A DNA stretch of 25,660 nt from a virus. Below are positions 19 to 15,570 of the stretch, piece by piece (position 1 is the stretch's first letter; every line of letters begins with the position of its first letter). Both the position numbers and the translations under genes were made by a program. Location of the stretch: positions 1 to 25,660 of IMG/VR virus record IMGVR_UViG_3300035199_000669; one strand, 5' to 3'. The notes under the pieces were generated by a model. It was not told the DNA's origin. It made no database searches and worked only from the letters and a program-made list of their open reading frames with translations.

Positions 19-534
19 ATGAAAATCACAAAGTCACAGCTTATAACAGAAGGATACCAACAGTTCTTGGGAGAGAATGACCTTTTGGATGAAAATTCCC
101 AAATCAAGGAGGGCAAGGCCGGCGCCGTCGAGGTTGCCATTATTCTGGCCGAAATCGTAGGGCCCGAAGGGAGAGAAAAGTTGGCAGATATTCTTGTCGC
201 TTTCCCGGAATTTATTCAGGGTTTAATTTGCCCATTATCTGAAAAGATTTTTGGACCGGGCCCTGTGACCAAGCTCGTCGCCAAAGTGTGCCGTTTTGGC
301 CTTAAAGCCCAATTCTCCATCTTCTATGTCGGCGCCTATCTTTTGAGAAAAATGGACGATGAACAGGTACAACAACTGATTGCCGGATCCGAACAGCCCG
401 CAGCGGCCGAAGAAACACCTGCCCTCGCCGAGGTGCTGGTCGACATGTCTGAAGGCAGGCTACCAAACAAACTAGAAGAATCTGTTGTGTCTCGCTGGCA
501 AGTTCTTTCTGGTGTTAACAAGGAGGTCAAATGA
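19..534 (+). CDS. Putative prohead core / internal head protein
   Basis: This 171-residue protein is not confidently recognised. Its first eleven residues, MKITKSQLITE, followed by Gly12, look like the short cleavable N-terminal peptide of T4 prohead-core and internal proteins. I9-T10-E11 fits the (L/I)-x-E consensus cut by the gp21 protease, whose homologue is the next full-size gene. Residues 34-110 are rich in hydrophobic helical stretches (36-48, 56-72, 98-109). Residues 124-137 are Ala/Glu/Pro-rich and the C-terminus is hydrophilic. The ATG follows an AAGGGA about nine bases upstream, and in-frame-independent stops at the left edge suggest the previous gene ends there. In T4 the small core genes 67 and 68 occupy this place between portal and protease, so a core role is inferred from position and N-terminus only. 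It ends in an ATGA overlap with a micro-ORF. Confidence 0.6.
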   Translation: MKITKSQLITEGYQQFLGENDLLDENSQIKEGKAGAVEVAIILAEIVGPEGREKLADILVAFPEFIQGLICPLSEKIFGPGPVTKLVAKVCRFGLKAQFSIFYVGAYLLRKMDDEQVQQLIAGSEQPAAAEETPALAEVLVDMSEGRLPNKLEESVVSRWQVLSGVNKEVK

Positions 535-4290: not shown

Positions 4291-6186
4291 ATGTCAGTGT
4301 TAAATAAACTAACTGAAGGGATCGTTTCTCGCGATCTCAAGAAAGAAGGCAGCGCGCGTCTCTCCAAGTGGGAAAAGACCGGTCTTCTTGAAGGCCTGAC
4401 CGACGACAGTGCTCGTCAGGGTATGGCCCGTCTGCTTGAAAACCAAGCAGCGCAGCTTCTGAAAGAAGCTTCCACTATGGTCGGTGGTAGCGTCGAGGGC
4501 TTTGCTTCCGTCGCTTTCCCGCTCGTCCGTCGTGTTTTCGGGGGCCTTTTGGCCAACGATGTCGTCTCGGTTCAGCCGATGAGTTTGCCCTCGGGCCTCA
4601 TTTTCTTCCTTGACTTTACCCACTCTTCGAACACCAGCCCTCGCGTGGGTGCCCTCTCCGGTGCATCCCTCTATGGCGGTGGCAAGGTCGGCCAGCAGAT
4701 TACTGGTGGTGTGAACCTTGGTTATGAAGGCGAGCGAGCCATTTCGGGAACGAAGTCTGGCGCAGTTCAGAGCCTTGATACTGGGTTCTATAACCTTTCT
4801 ACGGGCTATTCAGCGGCAACGGGCTCCACTTCGGTGGCTGTCAATGCCGGCATGAGTGCTTATTCTGTCGGAGCGGTTTCTGGCGCCACATGCGTCATTG
4901 ACCTCAATCCCTCGAATATCACCGAGGCCCAGAAGAAGGCTCTCCGTTATGACCCGGATGTTCTTGGTCTTGGCGATGGTCACGAGGCTATGATTCTCAA
5001 GTGTGAGCTTTCGAAGATTGAGACCAGTGGATTGGTCCTCGACCGCAACCAGCTTACCGCGGTTTCTTGCTCGTTCGCTACGGCCGAGACAGAGATGGAT
5101 GATGTTGTGCAGGTTCGTCGTTTGACTGCTCTGGGTAGTGATGATGGTTCCGTGAGTGTTACTAGCTCTAGGCACCCATCTGAGGCCCAGTGGAATGGCC
5201 AGCAGAATGCTCTGTTCTTTGTTTTCGTTGGTACAGACGCCAATATGTCTTCTACCTCTGTCCACCAGGATCAGCCGACATCTGCTGCTACTCTTGTGAG
5301 GTTCCCGCTAGCGGATAACTTCCAAGGAACGGCTGCCGCTGGTAACAATGCGAATTCCGTTGGTGCTGTAGTCGGTCAGACTGAGTGGGGTCTTGAGAAT
5401 GAAGAACTCATCCCTGAGATCGACATTAAGGTGGAAAGTCTCGCCGTGACGGCCAAGACTCGTAAGCTCAAGGCTAAGTGGACTCCGGAATTGGGACAGG
5501 ATCTCAACGCCTACCATAACCTTGATGCTGAGGTCGAGTTGACTAGCATTCTCTCTGAGCAAATTGCTCTAGAGATTGACCGTGAGATCCTTCAGGATCT
5601 CGTGCATGGTGCAACCGCTGGTACGCTCTATTGGTCGCGCTCTCCCGGTCTCTTCGTGAACCGTGAGACTGGTGCTGAAATCGGCGCCGCTTCGGCTGCT
5701 CCCGACTTCACCGGTACTGTGAGCGAGTGGTATGAGACTCTCATTGAAACTATCAATGATCTGTCTGCTAGAATCCACCGCAAGACTCTGCGGGGTGGTG
5801 CCAACTTTGTGATCTGCGGACCCGAAGTTGCTTCTATCCTTGAGTTTACCGCTGGTTTCCGTGCTTCCATCACTGTTGACTCCGATACGGGTTCGATTGG
5901 TGCTGTGAAGACTGGCTCTCTCTCCAAGAAGTTCGACGTTTACGTCGATCCTTACTTCCCGCGTAATGTGGTCCTTTGTGGTCGCAAGGGTGGTAGTTTC
6001 CTTGAGAGTGGCTACGTTTACGCTCCATATGTCCCGCTACAGGTCACTCCCACGATCTTCGGTGTCGAGGACTTCGTGCCCCGCAAGGGCGTGATGACTC
6101 GCTACGCCAAGAAGATGGTGCGTGGTGATATGTACGGTCTTGTGATTGTCCGTGGTCTCATCGGTGAGGCTGGTGCAACCAGCTAA
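4291..6186 (+). CDS. 23: Major capsid protein, T4 gp23-like
   Basis: This 631-residue subunit of the icosahedral head shell has an HK97-type fold by family. The N-terminal region has the T4-like pattern KWEKTGLLEGL then ARLLENQAAQLLKEAS. The site L57-K58-E59|A60 matches the gp21 consensus and the position of the T4 cut (after Glu65), so mature protein probably starts near Ala60. The following MVGGSVEGF...FPLVRRVFGGLLANDVVSVQPMSLPSG matches the gp23 region VMGMVRRAIPNLIAFDICGVQPMNSPTG, and EIDREILQDL matches the EINREVVDWI block. It is about 110 residues longer than T4 gp23, with extra sequence around residues 110-300, probably an enlarged surface domain. Codon choice is visibly more uniform and C-ending than in neighbours, as expected for a very highly expressed gene. 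Confidence 0.93.
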   Translation: MSVLNKLTEGIVSRDLKKEGSARLSKWEKTGLLEGLTDDSARQGMARLLENQAAQLLKEASTMVGGSVEGFASVAFPLVRRVFGGLLANDVVSVQPMSLPSGLIFFLDFTHSSNTSPRVGALSGASLYGGGKVGQQITGGVNLGYEGERAISGTKSGAVQSLDTGFYNLSTGYSAATGSTSVAVNAGMSAYSVGAVSGATCVIDLNPSNITEAQKKALRYDPDVLGLGDGHEAMILKCELSKIETSGLVLDRNQLTAVSCSFATAETEMDDVVQVRRLTALGSDDGSVSVTSSRHPSEAQWNGQQNALFFVFVGTDANMSSTSVHQDQPTSAATLVRFPLADNFQGTAAAGNNANSVGAVVGQTEWGLENEELIPEIDIKVESLAVTAKTRKLKAKWTPELGQDLNAYHNLDAEVELTSILSEQIALEIDREILQDLVHGATAGTLYWSRSPGLFVNRETGAEIGAASAAPDFTGTVSEWYETLIETINDLSARIHRKTLRGGANFVICGPEVASILEFTAGFRASITVDSDTGSIGAVKTGSLSKKFDVYVDPYFPRNVVLCGRKGGSFLESGYVYAPYVPLQVTPTIFGVEDFVPRKGVMTRYAKKMVRGDMYGLVIVRGLIGEAGATS

Positions 6187-6208
6187 TCCTTAGAGATTAA
6201 CTAAATCC

Positions 6209-6240
6209 AACCCGCTCTCTTCGGAGAGCGGGTTTTTTAT
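6209..6240 (+). terminator. Rho-independent terminator after the capsid gene
   Basis: AACCCGCTCTC (6209-6219), a UUCG-type loop and GAGAGCGGGTT (6224-6234) form a perfect 11-bp stem, followed directly by a T run. The UUCG tetraloop makes it exceptionally stable. It lies 22 bases after the capsid stop and would end, or protect the 3' end of, the capsid transcript. Confidence 0.93.
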
Positions 6241-6268
6241 TTATATGTTGCTTATGATTTATGATAGA

Positions 6269-6276
6269 ACTACTTA
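6269..6276 (+). promoter_or_regulatory. Possible late promoter, ACTACTTA variant
   Basis: This is a one-mismatch variant of the recurrent ACTATTTA octamer, located after the capsid terminator and 60 bases before the next start. A new promoter is expected here because of the strong terminator just upstream. The variant also occurs (CCTACTTA) before the gene at 19902. Confidence 0.3.
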
Positions 6277-6336
6277 TAAGCGAAAGGAAAAATACCTTTT
6301 GTTAATTGACCTAACATTCTATAGGAGGAATTTATT

Positions 6337-7284
6337 ATGGGAACGAAAAGAGTAGGTTGGGCTAGAATTAAAAGCCTGATTAACGATCAGAAAACATCGA
6401 TTGGCAATCGACGCAATTACGCCACATACGCAAGTGGATCGGGCCCCGATCACGCCGGCAACGCGGGGGGCACGGCCTCTACCGCTGAAGCGACCAGCAT
6501 GCAAACAGATACAGTGCTTATCATTGGCAAAAACTCTGTCTCGTCGGCAAAGCCAGCCGTGGCAGATCCGTTTACGGAAAGCTCAACGCAGCTATGGCCG
6601 CTAGGAACAAAATTAGAGTATGGCGAGAGAACATTTAGATATTGCCAAACCGGCGCAGCAATCACCGCTGGTAAGCTTGTGCAGCAGACGACTCACGTTG
6701 CTAACCACACAAACTGTACAGTTACCAATGCAGACGCAGTTGCTGGAAGCTATTCTCACGCAGCGGGTTCAACTTCGATTTCGATTGAGACTGCCGGCGA
6801 CACTGACTTAACAGCAAACCTGTACGCTGAAGGCTATTTGTTCGTTAACGATGGAACCGCTGAAGGCCAATGTATGAGAGTCAAGTCTCACCCGGCTCAC
6901 GACCATAGCGATGATCCATCAGTTGTTATTACAACATATGATCCACTGAAGACGGCCGTTGTGAAAAATAACTCACAATTGTCGCTTGTTAAAAACCCGT
7001 ATACTGCTGTTGTTACCGCTCCCACCGCCGAAACGGGTGCCGTGGTTGGCGCAAGTGTAATTGATTTGCAATCCGGTTATTTTGGTTGGCTCCAAACGAA
7101 CGGCCCTTGCCCCGTGTTGGTAAGTGAAGCTGTTGTGGTATTGGGACACAGAGTTATAAGATCAAATGCAGACGCCGGCGGTGTTATGGCAGCCGATAGT
7201 GACCCTCTGTTATATCCAGTAGGTCAGTGCATGGCTTCTGGTGTTGTAGATACTGAATACGCATTGATCTGGCTTAATATTTGA
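6337..7284 (+). CDS. Virion structural protein, probable head decoration/fibre
   Basis: This 315-residue protein follows the capsid gene in its own transcription unit between two terminators, with an ATAGGAGG site before the ATG. The first 60 residues are polar and Ala/Gly/Ser-rich. The segment TKLEYGERTFRYCQTGAA (about 90-107) begins a beta-rich body with many Thr/Val/Ala residues. The end is a compact hydrophobic strand, TEYALIWLNI. Proteins containing a similar LEYGERTFRYC segment next to capsid genes are common in marine T4-like phages as far as I recall, so a capsid surface or vertex role is likely. In T4 the vertex gene 24 follows gene 23, but no gp23/gp24-like fold motif is visible here. 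Confidence 0.6.
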   Translation: MGTKRVGWARIKSLINDQKTSIGNRRNYATYASGSGPDHAGNAGGTASTAEATSMQTDTVLIIGKNSVSSAKPAVADPFTESSTQLWPLGTKLEYGERTFRYCQTGAAITAGKLVQQTTHVANHTNCTVTNADAVAGSYSHAAGSTSISIETAGDTDLTANLYAEGYLFVNDGTAEGQCMRVKSHPAHDHSDDPSVVITTYDPLKTAVVKNNSQLSLVKNPYTAVVTAPTAETGAVVGASVIDLQSGYFGWLQTNGPCPVLVSEAVVVLGHRVIRSNADAGGVMAADSDPLLYPVGQCMASGVVDTEYALIWLNI

Positions 7285-7318
7285 TAAATATCGAGTCATA
7301 ACATGACAAGAAAAGCCT

Positions 7319-7350
7319 AAAAGGGCGGGAACTAATTCCTGCCCTTTTTT
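7319..7350 (+). terminator. Rho-independent terminator
   Basis: AAAAGGGCGGGA (7319-7330), a six-base loop and TCCTGCCCTTTT (7337-7348) form a 12-bp stem with one G-T wobble, ending in a T run. It closes the 6337 gene and lies two bases before a sigma-70 promoter. Confidence 0.9.
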
Positions 7351-7351
7351 G

Positions 7352-7380
7352 TTGACAAAACACAAAACATATGATATATT
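7352..7380 (+). promoter_or_regulatory. Sigma-70-type promoter, TTGACA-17-TATATT
   Basis: A perfect -35 box TTGACA (7352-7357), exactly 17 bases of spacing, a -10 box TATATT (7375-7380) and an extended -10 TGA (7372-7374) are present. It is the only near-consensus housekeeping promoter I found in the window. It sits between a terminator and a small gene, so that gene can be transcribed by unmodified host RNA polymerase, independent of late phage control. Confidence 0.88.
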
Positions 7381-7399
7381 AAAAGAAAAGAGGTGATAT

Positions 7400-7678
7400 G
7401 TGAAAGAAGGGTATGAAAATATCTTGGAGCGTCAAAGCATTGTTGAAGAGAAGATAGATCAACTGGAGCAGCGGCTTGAATATTCCGCGGAAGTGTTTGA
7501 GTATATTCTGGAGAGTTTGGGTCGATTGAGCGAGGAACTTGAGCGCCTAAAAGAACCACCATCATTGATTACGCTGCCAACGGAGGTGTGGATCTCACCA
7601 CCGGCGTCTTGTGACTGGGAGCCATTGGTTCCCGGCCCTGAGCTTGTTGTTGAAGCGAAACAAACCACCGACTCTTAA
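7400..7678 (+). CDS. Small coiled-coil protein, moron-like
   Basis: This 92-residue acidic protein has residues 5-53 as a strong coiled coil (heptad-like Leu/Ile/Val pattern in EKIDQLEQRLEYSAEVFEYI and LSEELERLKE). A Pro-rich, probably unstructured tail of about 39 residues follows. The GTG start is preceded by GAGGTG four bases upstream; the overlapping ATG at 7398 is closed at once by a stop. The gene has its own sigma-70 promoter and is enclosed by two intrinsic terminators, the arrangement called a moron in tailed phages. Such genes usually act on the host during infection or lysogeny. No function can be read from the sequence. A small oligomeric regulator, antirepressor-like or inhibitor protein is possible. 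Confidence 0.7.
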   Translation: MKEGYENILERQSIVEEKIDQLEQRLEYSAEVFEYILESLGRLSEELERLKEPPSLITLPTEVWISPPASCDWEPLVPGPELVVEAKQTTDS

Positions 7679-7699
7679 AGAAAATTTTAATCTTTCAAG

Positions 7700-7730
7700 C
7701 CCCCTCCTCTTGGTGGGGGGTTTTCTTTTA
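7700..7730 (+). terminator. Rho-independent terminator
   Basis: CCCCCTCC (7700-7707), a TCTT loop and GGTGGGGG (7712-7719) form an eight-position stem with one T-T mismatch, followed by TTTTCTTTTA. It lies 22 bases after the coiled-coil gene and isolates it from the genes downstream. Confidence 0.8.
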
Positions 7731-7737
7731 TTTGGGA

Positions 7738-7745
7738 ACTAATTA
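7738..7745 (+). promoter_or_regulatory. Possible late promoter, ACTAATTA variant
   Basis: This is a one-mismatch variant of the ACTATTTA octamer, 20 bases before the ATG at 7766 and just after a terminator. It would serve the two-gene unit of basic repeat protein and tubulin-like GTPase. The call rests on position and similarity only. Confidence 0.3.
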
Positions 7746-7765
7746 TTATAACCATTGGAGGAATA

Positions 7766-8164
7766 ATGGGAAAGAAAAGAAGAGTATTAAATAATCCAAA
7801 GTTTGCTAAACTAAGGACGCATCCAAAGTATGCTGAAATGGTTGCTACAAGGGGGCAAGAAGAAGAATCTTGTGATGTAGTCACTAAGCAGCGAGAACCA
7901 GAGATTGTAAAAGAACCAGTTGTCGCGCCGTTCTTAGTTAAACTAAGGACGCATCCAAAGTATGCTGGAATGGTTGCCGCTCACGAGCAAGGAAAAGAAG
8001 AATCTTGTGAAGTAGTCATTAAGCAGCCAGAACCAGAGATCGCGGAGATTACGCCAGAGCTTAAAGTTGTAAAACTAGAAAAGCCAAAGCCTGCTCCCAA
8101 AACGAAAGCAAAATCAAAAACAAAAAAGATTACAGTAAGAAAGTCAACAAGGAAGAAAAAATGA
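7766..8164 (+). CDS. Lysine-rich protein with two 44-residue repeats, coupled to the tubulin-like gene
   Basis: This 132-residue protein of unknown family contains two near-identical repeats that begin KLRTHPKYA (residues about 15-58 and 59-95). Each continues with a charged EESCD/EVV.KQ..PEI segment. The C-terminal 35 residues are extremely basic (KPKPAPKTKAKSKTKK then RKSTRKKK), resembling histone-H1-like nucleic-acid-binding tails. GGAGG lies before the ATG. The stop overlaps the start of the FtsZ/tubulin-like gene as ATGA, so the two are translationally coupled and probably work together. Plasmid and phage tubulin systems (TubZ) have a small DNA-binding partner, TubR, encoded just upstream. 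This protein has no visible helix-turn-helix, so an analogous adaptor role is inference. A packaged DNA-binding protein is the main alternative. Confidence 0.72.
   Translation: MGKKRRVLNNPKFAKLRTHPKYAEMVATRGQEEESCDVVTKQREPEIVKEPVVAPFLVKLRTHPKYAGMVAAHEQGKEESCEVVIKQPEPEIAEITPELKVVKLEKPKPAPKTKAKSKTKKITVRKSTRKKK
7808..8041 (+). repeat. Internal 132-base direct duplication
   Basis: The copies start at 7808 and 7940 (period 132 bases, 44 codons). The first 28 bases are identical and the rest are clearly similar, with small in-frame differences. The duplication is inside the basic protein gene and preserves its reading frame, indicating a fairly recent in-frame duplication. Confidence 0.88.
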
Positions 8165-9195
8165 GTGATTTCGATTTCATAGACCATTATGGTGATAACG
8201 AAGAAGTAAAAGGCGAAGAACAACTGGCCGATAATGAGGTTGTTTCCTCCCTTAACTGTGCCGTTATTGGCGTTGGCGGCGGGGGAGGCAAGATGGCCAA
8301 AGCCTTTCTTGACATCGGATTCAATAGAACTTTACTTGTTAATACCACGGCAAAGGATATCCCCGAAGACGTTGACGAGAGACATGTTGTATTGATTCCA
8401 GATGCAGATGGAATTGGAAAAGATGTGAATCTTGGCAAGACCGTATTCGCGGATAATGGTGCCGTCGTTGAAGACGCCCTCAGAACCAAGCTTGGGAGCG
8501 TCGACTGGCTGTTTGTCTTCGCTGGTGGGGGGGGAGGTACAGGAAGTGCTACTGTGTCCCTACACGGCGTATTTGAGCGCTATTTGAAGTCTGTAAGCGC
8601 AGAGGGCTCCGTTGTCTATGTTGTTTCCCGGCCATCTGCTCAGGAAGCTTTGAATTCAACCATTAGTAAGAATGCTGAATCTCTTTTAGAAGATGTGTCC
8701 GAACACACTCATATTGTTTTAGACAATGAAAGACAAGTTAAGCTACTGCGCGGCAAAGTCGGGATGCTTGGAATGTTCCCATTTGCAAATACTGCATTTG
8801 CCAAGCTTATAGCACAGGTGCTCAAGCTCTCCTCGGAGCAATCGTCTATTCAGTCCTTTGATTCCAAGGATTTAGAGAGATGTCTCAGGACTAAGAAAAG
8901 AACGTTCATCGGATCGACAATTATCCGAGATCCGAAAGATCCGAACTTGGGAGCAACGATATTTCAAAACTGCTTGAACCGCTCCCCCTGTCCGTTGCCA
9001 AAGGGCCGGCCCGCTACTGGTTCGATGTTGTTGGTTGTAACTTCAGAAATGGCTAACGATCCCGAGATTAGTAAACACTTAGATGCTGCTATTTCATATG
9101 TCGGCGGAAGAACAGAAACACTATTTGCCGGTGTGTATGTGAAAGAAGACCTCCCAGGTTTAGTTGCTATATTGACAATGAATGGTTTGGATTGA
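8161..9195 (+). CDS. FtsZ/tubulin-superfamily GTPase
   Basis: This 344-residue cytomotive-filament-type GTPase has its superfamily elements in order. T1 is GVGGGGGKMA (37-46). T2 is NTTAKDI (61-67). T3 is GIGKDVNLG (84-92). The signature loop is AGGGGGTGSA (121-130). The VSRPS strand end lies at 155-159, and LDNERQ at 187-192 matches the FtsZ IPNDRL region. The catalytic T7-type loop is SFDSKDL with Asp234 and Asp237 in place of the FtsZ NxDxxD aspartates. Two changes are odd: the T7 Asn is Ser, and the last Gly of the tubulin signature is Ala130. An acidic tail of about 30 residues precedes the domain, and there is no FtsZ C-terminal partner peptide. Phage relatives (PhuZ, TubZ) position or segregate DNA, but this copy lies among head and neck genes. 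Filament formation is likely; its task here is unknown. Confidence 0.87.
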   Translation: MSDFDFIDHYGDNEEVKGEEQLADNEVVSSLNCAVIGVGGGGGKMAKAFLDIGFNRTLLVNTTAKDIPEDVDERHVVLIPDADGIGKDVNLGKTVFADNGAVVEDALRTKLGSVDWLFVFAGGGGGTGSATVSLHGVFERYLKSVSAEGSVVYVVSRPSAQEALNSTISKNAESLLEDVSEHTHIVLDNERQVKLLRGKVGMLGMFPFANTAFAKLIAQVLKLSSEQSSIQSFDSKDLERCLRTKKRTFIGSTIIRDPKDPNLGATIFQNCLNRSPCPLPKGRPATGSMLLVVTSEMANDPEISKHLDAAISYVGGRTETLFAGVYVKEDLPGLVAILTMNGLD

Positions 9196-9246
9196 AAATC
9201 AGGCCTCGTTAAGATGGCATAGTCTGGGGTTTTTGTCTTATGGAGA

Positions 9247-9254
9247 ACTATTTA
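9247..9254 (+). promoter_or_regulatory. Candidate phage late promoter motif ACTATTTA
   Basis: An exact octamer in the 82-base gap after the tubulin-like gene, 23 bases before the neck gene, is followed by CATATGAA. The copy at 17370 has almost the same context (ACTATTTAACATATGA). Confidence 0.52.
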
Positions 9255-9277
9255 CATATGAATAGGAGACCCTATGT

Positions 9278-10609
9278 ATGGCCGTTCCCAAACTAACACC
9301 AAGTAGCACTACTAGCGCTGTTATACTGCCTTCAACCGGTAGCACTACTGATGTAGACGCTGCTGTACCATTCGGCGTTTACAACGATATCGGCTTCAGG
9401 GCCGGCGCATCTGCGCAGGTAGCATACACCTACAAGAAGCTTGGTGGAGATATTCTGGATATTGAGCTTAAGGCTGACAATGTTTATGCAGCGTATGAAG
9501 AGGCGTGTCTAGAATATTCTTATCAAATCAATATTCATCAGGCAAAAAACGTTCTTTCTGATTTGCTGGGAATGGCTACAGGCACTTTTGATCACAAAGG
9601 CGAGCACCAAACAGGTAGTGTCCACGATTCTGTAAGTGGCTCGCTGGTTAACTTAAAGTATCCTAGATATAAGTTTAGCTATGCACAGAGGGTCGCTGAT
9701 GGCATAGCGGAAGAAGCCGGCTTCGGAGGGAATCTAATTGAATATTCGGCTTCGTTTGCAATAGTTTCGGGGCAACAAGATTATGATTTACAGTCTATTA
9801 TCTCTGGTTCATCAATTACAACCGAACCGGCAGTCGCTCCAGGCGAATCTCAATATGGAACCGGCAGTATTGAACAAACCGCCGGATCGTTGAAGGCTTC
9901 CCAGCAAGACAGGATGAATCGCAAATTCAAGATTCGTAGAGTGTATTTTAAAACACCAGCATCGGTATGGAGATTTTATGGATATTATGGCGGGCTTAAT
10001 GTTGTAGGAAACTTAAATTATTATGGTCAGTTCGCCGATGATACGACCTTTGAACTGATCCCAACGTGGCATAATAAACTTCAAGCCATGGCCTTTGAAG
10101 ACCATATCTATACTAGATTATCTCACTATTCTTATGAGATTCATAATAATAAGTTAAGACTTTTCCCAATACCACAAGCAGAAATTCCACAAAATATGTG
10201 GGTTACCTTTACAATGCATAGAGATGCTTGGGAGGAAGATTCAGATAGGAAAACAGGCGTCGGGGGCATTAATAATATGAATACTTTGCCTTTCCCGAAC
10301 GTCCCTTATAAGAATATTAACTCGATAGGAAAGCAATGGATTCGACGGTATGCCCTAGCATTAACAAAGGAAATACTCGGACAGGTTAGAGGAAAGTTTG
10401 CTACAATTCCGATTCCAGGTGAATCAGTTACTTTAAACGCAGCCGACTTGCTATCTCAGGCCAAAGAAGAACAAGCGACGTTAAAGGAAGAAATCAAGAC
10501 TGTGCTTGATCAGATGACATACAAGGCACTTGCCGAACAGGACGCAGCGATGGTCACAGCTATTGATACTGTTTACCAGGAAATACCTCTCTTAATTTAC
10601 CAAGGATAA
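9278..10609 (+). CDS. 13: Neck / head completion protein, T4 gp13-like
   Basis: This 443-residue protein would join the packaged head to the tail. The segment DNVYAAYEEACLEYSYQIN (about 67-85) resembles the gp13 N-terminal helix with its EAIEKY pattern. KQWIRRYALALTKEILGQ (about 352-369), followed by KFATIPIPGESVTLNAADLL, closely parallels the T4 gp13 block around KRYAIALVKKQWGENLRKF and its GGVTMNGQEIYSEA continuation. It is about 130 residues longer than T4 gp13, with extra sequence in the middle. The next genes are the gp14- and gp15-like ones, exactly as in T4, which strengthens the call. AGGAG lies nine bases before the chosen ATG. The gene belongs to a run of closely packed genes up to 12011. 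Confidence 0.8.
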   Translation: MAVPKLTPSSTTSAVILPSTGSTTDVDAAVPFGVYNDIGFRAGASAQVAYTYKKLGGDILDIELKADNVYAAYEEACLEYSYQINIHQAKNVLSDLLGMATGTFDHKGEHQTGSVHDSVSGSLVNLKYPRYKFSYAQRVADGIAEEAGFGGNLIEYSASFAIVSGQQDYDLQSIISGSSITTEPAVAPGESQYGTGSIEQTAGSLKASQQDRMNRKFKIRRVYFKTPASVWRFYGYYGGLNVVGNLNYYGQFADDTTFELIPTWHNKLQAMAFEDHIYTRLSHYSYEIHNNKLRLFPIPQAEIPQNMWVTFTMHRDAWEEDSDRKTGVGGINNMNTLPFPNVPYKNINSIGKQWIRRYALALTKEILGQVRGKFATIPIPGESVTLNAADLLSQAKEEQATLKEEIKTVLDQMTYKALAEQDAAMVTAIDTVYQEIPLLIYQG

Positions 10610-12108: not shown

Positions 12109-15100
12109 ATGTCATCATCGTTGGCGAGAAAATTTAGATTTGTATCACCCGGCATCTTTCTGCGAGAGGTTGATAACTCACAGTTCCCAAGAGAACCAGA
12201 TGCAGTAGGGCCAACAATTATAGGTCGTTTTACCTCTGGTCCTGCTATGAGGCCCACAAAGGTTGCCTCTTTAGCTGAATTGGTCGAAACTTACGGGAAC
12301 CCTGTTCCGGGCGCCTCTTCTGGTGATGTCTGGCGCGAGGGTAATAAAACTGGCCCAACCTACGCCGCTTATGCTGCTTTTGCTTGGCTGAATGCTGGCG
12401 TTGCTCCTGCAAACATTTTCCGTCTGCTCGGCGACGAACACGACCAGAATGACGGTTCGGTACTGGGGCAAGCCGGCTGGACGACGACTAGCCCATCAAC
12501 GACAACCACCGCGGTGAGCCCGGCCGGCGCACTAGCCAACAACGGCGGTGCATATGGCCTTTGGATTATTCCTTCTGGCTCTGATATGCAAAACGTAAAG
12601 GGCACATCTTTGGGAACAGGCTCTCTTGCCGCTATCTGGTACGTTCGTGAGGGTGCCTTGACTCTCAAGGGCAAACCGACCTCAAACCAAACACAGGCCA
12701 GCGTCACCGCGATAACAGGCGCCGCTGTTATGATTCATTCTGAAGATTCAAGCTACACTTTCCAAGCCAGCCTGATCGACACGTCTTACAACAACGTGTA
12801 TACTACGAAATTCAATTTCGATAGAACTTCTGAGAACTATATCCGCAAAGTTTTCAATACCGACCCAATTACAACCAATACCAGCGTTGTTGATTCAACA
12901 ACTGTGAAGGAGGGCAAGGGTAAATATTGGCTTGGCGAGACTTTTGAAAGTAATTTGTTTAATATTGTTGGTGCTTCCGGCGATTCTTACGGCGTGATTC
13001 TTCCAATTCACTCTGGAACGATTAATGATGATGCACATGGCTCCGGATCCGCAATTGTTGGATACGAAGATCATCTAGAAGGATTCAAAAATCCTGAATC
13101 TGGCTGGTTCTTCTCACAGGATTTGGGAACTAGCAACGCCGATTATGCCGCAGAGCGTATGACGAAGATCTTTAAATTCCACGGGCTCGATTCCGGCGAA
13201 TGGCTCCAAAACAACATCAAGATTTCCATCGCAGATATCAAGGCGCCCACGAGTCTGTCTAACCCGTATGGTACATTTACCATCCAAATCCGCCGAGCAT
13301 CTGACACCGATAATGTCCCGGTCATCCTCGAACAATTCACCAATTGCAATTTAAATCCTGCCTCCGCAGATTATGTTGCAACGAAGGTCGGTGATATGTA
13401 TATGTCATTTGATTATAGCACAAACAGGCTCCGTGAATATGGACAGTTTGTTAACCGGTCTCGTTTTGTTCGGATTGAAATGAATCCATCGGTCGAGCAG
13501 GGTCAAGCAGACCCAGCAACGCTTCCATTCGGCGTCTTCGGGCCAATTCGGCCGTTTAGCTGGCGCGTTCGCTCCAATGATGGTGACGATGGCTCTACCG
13601 GAACACCCCTTTTGAGCACAACGAACGTCCCCGCCGATGATGACGGCGCAGCAAGAACCCCCGCAAACGGCGCAGCCGAAGCAACCATCACTGTAACCGT
13701 CGCCGATGTAGATAACATCGGCCAAGGCGATATTATCTCCTTAGTAACCACCGCCGGAACAACAATCACTTGTACGCTAACTGGAGTAGGAGGCACAACA
13801 ACTTCCTCGGGAACAGATGGGAATGTGGAGGCCGCGACATTCGCATCAGGTACAGATAACACGCTTCAAGCAACTTCGCAAGCAGTTGCAATTGCAACAG
13901 CAATAAACAATAATAACTTCTTTACTGCTACCAATAGCGCTAATGTTGTTACCGTAACCCAAGCTGTTGGCGGCGTGCCCGCGAATACAACAATTACGAT
14001 AACAGAACTTGGCGCGACTGGATTGACAAAGACAAATTTCACCGATGGTTCTAGTTTAGTAGGAACATTCGTTACTATGGAAGACAGCCTTGTTGCTAGT
14101 CACTACGACCCGAACGGCCTCACAAGCATTCTCTTTGGGGAAGCACAGGTCGTAAGCACCGGCGCCACAACTGCCGGCCAGTACCGCTACACAGCGTCTT
14201 ATGCATTCCCGAGAACGATGATTCGCAAGTCAGGCTCCGATGGAGGAATGGGCGACCCGAAAGAAGCCTATTTCGGTCTCCAAACAGGAAAGACCGCCAC
14301 AGACCCAACCTATGACCCCGGATACGCAGATTATCTCCGCCGTCTCCCAGCCGGATATGCCCAGACCGATACGATTACTGGCCCGGGCACTAATAGAGAA
14401 TACTCTTGGGTCTTCTCGCTTGATGATGTAAAGACAGTTGTCGATGGCGATATCGCCAAGTCTGCTTATTTTGCTTCTGGCTCTAGAAGAGTGGGTGGTT
14501 CGCTTACCGCTATGAGTTCTTCTTACAAACAGATTCTTGATGAAGGCTACGACCGTTTCACATCGCCCTTGTATGGCGGATTTGACGGTTGGGATATCTA
14601 CGAAGCAGAACCACTGGCCAACGCACGCATCAGCTCTACCGACACACAGTACACTAACTACGCTTATAACACTGTTAAGCGCGCCATCGATACCTGTGCT
14701 GATCCTGAGTTCGTCGAGACCAACCTAATGACTGTGCCCGGGCTGACTGCAAAGAACCTCACCAAGCATCTTATTGACACTTGTGAGGCCCGCGCTGATG
14801 CAATGGCAGTCATCGACATCGAAGATGTCTATACACCTTTCACGGAGAACACCAACTCGTTCCAGAGCAATGTTGGGAAAGTCAGCACGGCCATTTCTTC
14901 ATTGAGAGCCCGCGACCTTAACTCTAGCTACGCTGCAACCTATTATCCTTGGGTTCAGATTAGAGATCCTAACACTTCGAAGCTTGTTTGGACTCCACCT
15001 TCTGTTGTGGCTCTTGGAACTTACGCTAGCTCCGAGGCCAAGTCTGAGCTTTGGTTCGCTCCTGCTGGGTTTACCAGAGGTGGGCTGACCGACGGCGCCG

Positions 15101-15570
15101 CAGGCCTCCCGGTTGTGAACACGACCGAGAGAGTGGTTAAAAAGGATAGAGATAAGCTTTATACTGCCAATATCAACCCGATTGCAACGTTCCCGTCAGA
15201 GGGCATTGTGGTGTTCGGCCAGAAGACCCTTCAGGTTACGCCTTCGGCTTTGGACAGAATTAATGTGCGTCGTCTCTTAATCTATCTGAAGAAAGAGGTT
15301 TCTCGTATGGCCGCAACAATTCTGTTTGACCAGAACGTTCAGGCCACATGGACTAGGTTTAAGAACCAAGTTGAGCCTTTCTTGGGCAGCGTTCAGTCTA
15401 GGCTTGGCATTACGGAGTTCAAGGTCGTCCTTGACGAGACCACCACAACCCCAGATATGGTTGATAGAAATATCTTGTATGCTAAGATTTTCCTCAAGCC
15501 GGCAAGGGCAATCGAATTTATTGCGATTGATTTCGTGATTACTAGAACTGGCGCCGCATTTGAGGATTAA
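12109..15570 (+). CDS. 18: Contractile tail sheath protein, T4 gp18-like, giant form
   Basis: This 1153-residue sheath subunit has family-defining ends. The N-terminal SPGIFLREVDNSQFP then VGPTIIGRFTSGPA (residues about 13-48) is typical. So is the C-terminal core LQVTPSALDRINVRRLLIYL, followed by an ATWTRFKNQVEPFL segment and a final hydrophobic strand (about 1040-1153) that links neighbouring subunits. T4 gp18 has 659 residues, so almost 500 are extra and lie in the middle. Residues about 505-650 look like a separate beta domain rich in Thr/Val/Ala (TITVTVADVDNIGQGD, a central AIATAINNN, ending NFTDGS), of a kind repeated in many phage surface proteins. Extra domains of this sort project outwards from the sheath. 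AGGAG precedes the ATG, and an ACTATTTA motif lies upstream. Confidence 0.93.
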   Translation: MSSSLARKFRFVSPGIFLREVDNSQFPREPDAVGPTIIGRFTSGPAMRPTKVASLAELVETYGNPVPGASSGDVWREGNKTGPTYAAYAAFAWLNAGVAPANIFRLLGDEHDQNDGSVLGQAGWTTTSPSTTTTAVSPAGALANNGGAYGLWIIPSGSDMQNVKGTSLGTGSLAAIWYVREGALTLKGKPTSNQTQASVTAITGAAVMIHSEDSSYTFQASLIDTSYNNVYTTKFNFDRTSENYIRKVFNTDPITTNTSVVDSTTVKEGKGKYWLGETFESNLFNIVGASGDSYGVILPIHSGTINDDAHGSGSAIVGYEDHLEGFKNPESGWFFSQDLGTSNADYAAERMTKIFKFHGLDSGEWLQNNIKISIADIKAPTSLSNPYGTFTIQIRRASDTDNVPVILEQFTNCNLNPASADYVATKVGDMYMSFDYSTNRLREYGQFVNRSRFVRIEMNPSVEQGQADPATLPFGVFGPIRPFSWRVRSNDGDDGSTGTPLLSTTNVPADDDGAARTPANGAAEATITVTVADVDNIGQGDIISLVTTAGTTITCTLTGVGGTTTSSGTDGNVEAATFASGTDNTLQATSQAVAIATAINNNNFFTATNSANVVTVTQAVGGVPANTTITITELGATGLTKTNFTDGSSLVGTFVTMEDSLVASHYDPNGLTSILFGEAQVVSTGATTAGQYRYTASYAFPRTMIRKSGSDGGMGDPKEAYFGLQTGKTATDPTYDPGYADYLRRLPAGYAQTDTITGPGTNREYSWVFSLDDVKTVVDGDIAKSAYFASGSRRVGGSLTAMSSSYKQILDEGYDRFTSPLYGGFDGWDIYEAEPLANARISSTDTQYTNYAYNTVKRAIDTCADPEFVETNLMTVPGLTAKNLTKHLIDTCEARADAMAVIDIEDVYTPFTENTNSFQSNVGKVSTAISSLRARDLNSSYAATYYPWVQIRDPNTSKLVWTPPSVVALGTYASSEAKSELWFAPAGFTRGGLTDGAAGLPVVNTTERVVKKDRDKLYTANINPIATFPSEGIVVFGQKTLQVTPSALDRINVRRLLIYLKKEVSRMAATILFDQNVQATWTRFKNQVEPFLGSVQSRLGITEFKVVLDETTTTPDMVDRNILYAKIFLKPARAIEFIAIDFVITRTGAAFED

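Follow-up and report, generated by a model that had tools for sequence, protein, structure and literature searches.

FtsZ ends in a C-terminal peptide that acts as a docking peptide, and PhuZ carries a long C-terminal helix beyond its core domain. The phage tubulins whose function has been studied form two groups, namely PhuZ (in nucleus-forming phages) and the TubZ partition systems, and reviews describe phage tubulins as proteins of these two types (PMC7824862, PMC13282480). A survey of the far-T4 phages (PMC4360716) does not mention tubulin or FtsZ, and our literature search found no paper linking tubulin/FtsZ with far-T4 phages, nor any on the protein family treated here. This family makes a question testable: do tubulin filaments also arrange replication or packaging in phages without a nucleus? 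It also gives the superfamily a further deep branch, and the history of the superfamily is relevant to how tubulin arose.

The DNA analysed (hereafter the window) is a 25,660-nt stretch of the viral record IMGVR_UViG_3300035199_000669, and we call its tubulin/FtsZ-superfamily protein TUB. The gene, reported in an earlier note on this DNA and recovered here at the same place (8161..9195, + strand, ATG start), encodes a predicted GTPase of 344 residues, identified by profile, alignment and model matches. The Pfam profile PF00091 (Tubulin) matches TUB with 34.3 bits (E 3.7e-8), above its gathering score of 33 bits, and the FtsZ profile TIGR00065 with 45.9 bits (E 4.8e-12), far below its equivalog cut-off of 295 bits. 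A profile built from 36 relatives and searched against the PDB found FtsZ (E 2.9e-10), CetZ of Methanosaeta (2.3e-9) and TubZ (4xcq, 2.6e-7), with other CetZ chains also among the matches. By profile, domain architecture and the acidic residues of the T7 loop, TUB is a member of the tubulin/FtsZ superfamily.

The AlphaFold2 model (pLDDT 91.6, pTM 0.89) shows a GTPase domain, a long central helix H7 and a C-terminal domain, which is the complete tubulin fold that the earlier note had proposed to look for; the only unreliable part is residues 1-18 (pLDDT <50), and residues 28-344 align to FtsZ, TubZ and CetZ structures. In structural comparison the highest scores went to TubZ (Z 32.0), CetZ2 (Z 31.7) and FtsZ (Z about 29), while Foldseek against solved structures gave CetZ as best match (best E 5e-20). 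Among predicted viral structures, the best matches were A0A6J5RW92 and A0A8S5UFG9 (E 1.9e-21 and 4.9e-17), two uncultured-phage proteins annotated as FtsZ-like; the predicted PhuZ structures aligned less well than these two (TM about 0.54). PhuZ chains do not appear in the list of PDB structural matches, although absence from that list excludes nothing. By both sequence and structure matches TUB is thus nearer to FtsZ, TubZ and CetZ than to PhuZ, in agreement with what had been judged by eye. The supposed absence of an FtsZ-type C-terminal peptide also holds, as the chain stops at the core domain with a strand (residues 334-343) as its final element, and the relatives extend by at most four residues.

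The nucleotide-binding loops of the superfamily had been read from the sequence as present and in order, and this was correct in every detail that we checked by alignment to FtsZ and in 129 relatives. The T1 (G-rich) loop GVGGGGGK (residues 37-44, 8269..8292, + strand) is mostly invariant in the 118-119 relatives covering it, and is followed by the GIGKD loop (residues 84-88) and by the T4 signature loop AGGGGGTGSA (residues 121-130, 8521..8550, + strand), in which, as had been noticed, Ala replaces the last Gly. The T4 loop hardly varies in the family, and its T127 and G128 are invariant wherever they are covered. N189 (8725..8727, + strand), the counterpart of the guanine-contacting Asn of FtsZ and tubulin, is found in 129/129 relatives. 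So are both catalytic-type aspartates of the T7 loop, S232-F-D234-S-K-D237 (8854..8871, + strand), which aligns with FtsZ such that D234, D237 and S232 correspond to D209, D212 and N207 in E. coli numbering. The substitution of Ser for the T7 Asn is therefore real, and this position is Ser, Thr or Ala across the 129 relatives.

The first 30 residues (8161..8250, + strand) form the acidic N-terminal tail already described from the sequence, whose low-confidence portion (residues 1-18) contains a conserved segment, DFDFIDHYG (residues 3-11). Nearly all relatives with a complete N-terminus carry the motif D-F-[DG]-[FM]-[VI]-[ED]-x-[YF]-G, with D3 in 114/116 and F4 in 115/116, some other positions being less strict. 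In 56 of the 62 members of the SbcCD-type arrangement class (see below) the F-[DEG]-[FM] core is duplicated, in some tails with a Pro-rich spacer, and among clustered neighbour proteins of comparable number TUB alone carries it with such regularity. Short conserved motifs of this kind in disordered tails are typically docking peptides, and the TUB tail with its DF[DG][FM] motif looks like one.

A single-sequence search of IMG/VR returned 64 TUB loci and a profile search at least 135 candidates, from which 129 distinct loci were taken as comparison set. There are thus at least 129 relatives (59-94% identical) on uncultured viral contigs, which reach 185-267 kb, each long contig with TUB having a single copy; the family is presumably marine, as the collection and the MAG series would suggest. 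A tblastn search of 50,697 phage genome records gave no relative, and neither did a search of the full genomes of the isolates Flavobacterium phage immuto, Microcystis phage Mel-JY01 and RM378 or of LR756508. One relative (L145, PAAD01000063.1) comes from a contig assigned to a Flavobacteriaceae MAG; among 99 genomes searched from that phylum this MAG alone contained a relative, and therefore TUB is a viral gene. Of the long contigs with related portals, those of the L040 group have TUB, and a 190-kb and a 131-kb contig do not. Given these contigs, and the lack of the gene in all far-T4 isolates checked, TUB is not essential to such phages.

The family is under purifying selection (median dN/dS 0.043, 340 pairs with usable dS). 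In matched genome pairs, identity is similar for TUB and TerL (73.5% vs 76.0%) and for TUB and the portal (70.7% vs 70.3%), whereas TUB changes more slowly than the MCP (69.1% vs 59.2%), the neck protein (69.5% vs 48.6%) and the sheath (68.4% vs 43.5%). We infer that this pattern fits a function that is exacting and conserved better than it fits a rapidly changing factor aimed at the host. In short, the gene is patchy in occurrence, mobile in position and slow in sequence change.

The gene order in the window is protease, scaffold-like protein, MCP, three small ORFs, TUB, neck, sheath, tube and baseplate hub. The claim that TUB is embedded between capsid and neck genes is true for the window, with a gp23-type major capsid protein upstream (4291..6186, + strand, E 7e-72) and an Ad2-like neck/head-tail adaptor protein downstream (9278..10609, + strand, phrog_211, E 1.9e-12), but fails as a general rule, as this arrangement is found in 32 of the 129 loci. 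Five kinds of neighbourhood were distinguished, covering part of the loci: between MCP and neck (32), between an SbcCD-like nuclease and lysis/TerL genes (66), before the protease, before the scaffold, and near PhoH. The family tree requires at least eight changes of position, and the MCP-neck interval lacks TUB in 67 of the 68 MCP relatives that have both genes, the sole exception being an already known TUB contig; in immuto and Mel-JY01 the interval holds PhoH. Because of these moves and the many intervals without TUB, little can be read from its location in the window as to a role in the capsid, and we rejected location as evidence for one. More generally, this mobility removes guilt-by-association support for any single role.

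The MCP-neck interval itself is variable (6186-9278 in the window; 75 to 2,778 bases among the relatives L167-L246, many below 140 bases). The MCP has 631 residues, of which isolate relatives align to 50-58% in two pieces, suggesting an inserted domain. The sheath (12109-15570) is very large (1153 residues), and since what is conserved among sheaths falls mainly in its C-terminal half, it carries a big N-terminal or inserted domain. Directly before TUB lies h132, a Lys-rich protein of 132 residues (7766..8164, + strand), and a terminator-like hairpin with a T run (7701..7730, + strand) separates this pair from the upstream genes. As the h132 stop and the TUB start overlap by four bases (ATGA), the arrangement suggests that their translation is coupled. 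Homologues of h132 were found beside TUB, on either side of it, only in the window's subclade, and in L169 one lies between MCP and neck with no TUB in that interval; the notion of h132 as an obligate partner was therefore not upheld. Searching the collection with h132 gave no match, probably through its low complexity. A direct repeat inside the h132 gene (spacing 132-135 bases) is missing from the listed homologues and is probably a recent duplication. Defence-system profiles gave no meaningful match.

Concerning the virus itself, the nearest isolates by gp23 capsid match are Flavobacterium phage immuto, Microcystis phage Mel-JY01 and RM378, with cyanophages and T4 relatives behind, and on the strength of this match it is classed as a far-T4-like phage. 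The literature associates far-T4 phages with Bacteroidetes and Flavobacteriales (PMC7198788, PMC13037479), which, together with the L145 MAG, hinted at a flavobacterial host. Against this, a Shine-Dalgarno motif precedes 18 of the 24 window genes (random rate 0.15) and only 2 of 39 in immuto, so that a Bacteroidota host is unlikely for this phage. Shine-Dalgarno use in the other TUB phages ranges from 0.43 to 0.76, which suggests different hosts. For L145 it is 5/9, not flavobacterial-looking, and the binning of this contig may be wrong. A search for multisubunit RNA polymerase (PF00623) was uninformative, the phiKZ control giving no match either. The T4 late-promoter-like sequence TATAAATA (at most one mismatch) occurs 48 times in the whole window against 28 expected (0/100 shuffles reaching this number), but the enrichment is on both strands and we set it aside as evidence of late promoters. 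The first ORF of the window (19-534) begins MKITKSQLITEG, similar to the MKITKxxLxxIIxEE-like start of a cluster of 175 small ORFs at 67 loci (e.g. L052:1874-2326). This peptide resembles the capsid-targeting sequence of T4 internal head proteins, and by this analogy the ORFs could be internal head proteins.

Phylogeny, also proposed in the earlier note, was addressed with a small reference set (15 TUB family members, five FtsZ, PhuZ and two partial CetZ rows; TubZ was left out). The 15 family members lie on one side of a branch with support 94/91, at the end of a long stem (3.4 changes per column), while the five FtsZ group together without TUB (99/99), as do the PhuZ proteins (100/100). The two CetZ rows, which are partial and long-branched, fall beside FtsZ and not with TUB (support for the pair 83/41). 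In this tree TUB is accordingly a separate branch, nested in neither FtsZ nor PhuZ nor, as far as two partial rows can tell, CetZ. The tree supports that TUB was not recently copied from PhuZ or from the FtsZ of a host, which is as far as a small, long-branched tree goes.

What, then, might TUB do? Of the functions considered, an action on host division, in which TUB would co-assemble with host FtsZ or cap it, block the Z ring and leave the cell large and undivided, seems to us unlikely. Small phage inhibitors of FtsZ do exist (T7 gp0.4 and lambda Kil) and the TUB sequence is nearest to FtsZ and CetZ, but its identity to FtsZ is only 19%, for E. coli as for a Bacteroidota genome, with the long stem between them in the tree. 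Moreover, a capper would not need both T7 aspartates, yet every relative keeps them, and TUB stays about 60% conserved between phages that seem to differ in host, to judge from their Shine-Dalgarno use (43-76%). The earlier idea of co-polymerising with or poisoning host FtsZ consequently gains no positive support from an identity of 19%. It is improbable, too, that TUB is a TubZ-type segregation motor, keeping the phage genome as a plasmid in a carrier state: beside TUB in the window we saw neither a TubR-like HTH gene nor an iteron array, and the phage carries lytic T4-type virion genes, even if TubZ scores highest in the structural comparison (Z 32.0) and is a profile match (4xcq, E 2.6e-7). 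The basic partner h132 could bind DNA, as such a motor would have it, but is low-complexity, not HTH-like, and found in the window's subclade only.

A third reading makes TUB an accessory of the head or its assembly, either a GTP-regulated scaffold or a protein packed into the virion, forming no long filaments. It draws on the 32 loci, the window among them, where TUB lies between capsid and neck genes, and on the other positions beside protease, scaffold, portal or terminase genes. The 67 of 68 MCP relatives with both flanks but no TUB there mean that it is not needed at that place for capsid assembly in close relatives, its rate of evolution does not track that of MCP, neck or sheath, and the gene most often found upstream of it codes for an SbcCD-like recombination nuclease; we give this reading little credence.

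Our preferred explanation is that TUB, a separate lineage of the superfamily in far-T4-like phages, is a GTP-dependent self-assembling filament that organises phage DNA, packaging sites or capsids, a reading whose chances we consider evenly balanced. The more limited statement that TUB binds GTP and forms polymers is, we infer, very probably right. The top structural matches (TubZ, CetZ2, FtsZ) are all polymerising proteins, and the full fold, the invariant D234 and D237, the kept nucleotide loops, the dN/dS of 0.043 and the conserved tail motif argue in the same direction. The slow change of TUB, like that of TerL and portal and slower than that of MCP, neck and sheath, is expected if much of its surface is buried in a polymer, and we also count in favour of the explanation its occurrence on phage contigs, mostly beside late, packaging or replication genes. 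Against it stand the Ser/Thr/Ala at the T7 Asn and the loss of the last signature Gly, as well as the patchy occurrence and the mobility that takes away neighbour evidence.

In the filament mechanism that we propose, one subunit would bind GTP in its T1-T6 pocket and the T7 loop of the next (D234, D237) would complete the active site, whereby assembly and hydrolysis would be coupled. The acidic, unstructured tail at the N-terminus, bearing the DF[DG][FM] motif, would project from the polymer and dock cargo or an anchor. During infection the polymer would most likely arrange phage DNA, packaging sites or capsids inside the cell, and no nuclear shell was detected in these phages. A chimallin search of eight long, possibly incomplete contigs with the single-sequence query phiKZ gp54 found none, and the same query recovered the homologues of 201phi2-1 and Goslar as positive controls. 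We also put forward, tentatively, that the family is a further major cytomotive tubulin clade specific to far-T4-like phages, with GTP-driven filaments, no phage nucleus, and cargo docking by the N-terminal DF[DG][FM] motif in place of a C-terminal tail.

Compared with the known systems, TUB is, like PhuZ, a phage-encoded tubulin-superfamily protein of large phages, but it lies on a separate branch, predicted PhuZ structures align to it poorly (TM about 0.54), and the long C-terminal helix of PhuZ is missing, the TUB model ending in the strand 334-343. The PhuZ profile phrog_4733 has no match to TUB up to E 0.1, whereas the PhuZ proteins of phiKZ and 201phi2-1 score 395 and 354 bits. With the TubZ of plasmids and plasmid-like phages (4ei7, 2xka, 4xcq) TUB shares the top structural score (Z 32.0) and a phage/plasmid setting, but it has no TubR/tubC-like neighbours in the window and its model ends at the core, with no C-terminal helix. 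The two uncharacterised FtsZ-like proteins of uncultured phages, A0A6J5RW92 (452 aa) and A0A8S5UFG9 (387 aa), are 17-18% identical to TUB. The fold, nucleotide loops and T7 aspartates are common to TUB and FtsZ, from which TUB differs in its low identity (19%), the lack of a C-terminal linker and peptide, the Ser at the T7 Asn and the long conserved N-tail. Archaeal CetZ (PDB 3zid, 4b45) is the best single-sequence and Foldseek match (CetZ2, Z 31.7), and its T7 Asn position is likewise altered (Thr or Val; Thr in M. thermophila); nevertheless, the identity is 21%, and TUB is encoded by viruses with T4-type virions and forms its own branch in the tree. Beside PhuZ and TubZ, the TUB family thus represents a third phage setting, that of many uncultured T4-type phages, in which the protein is conserved like terminase.
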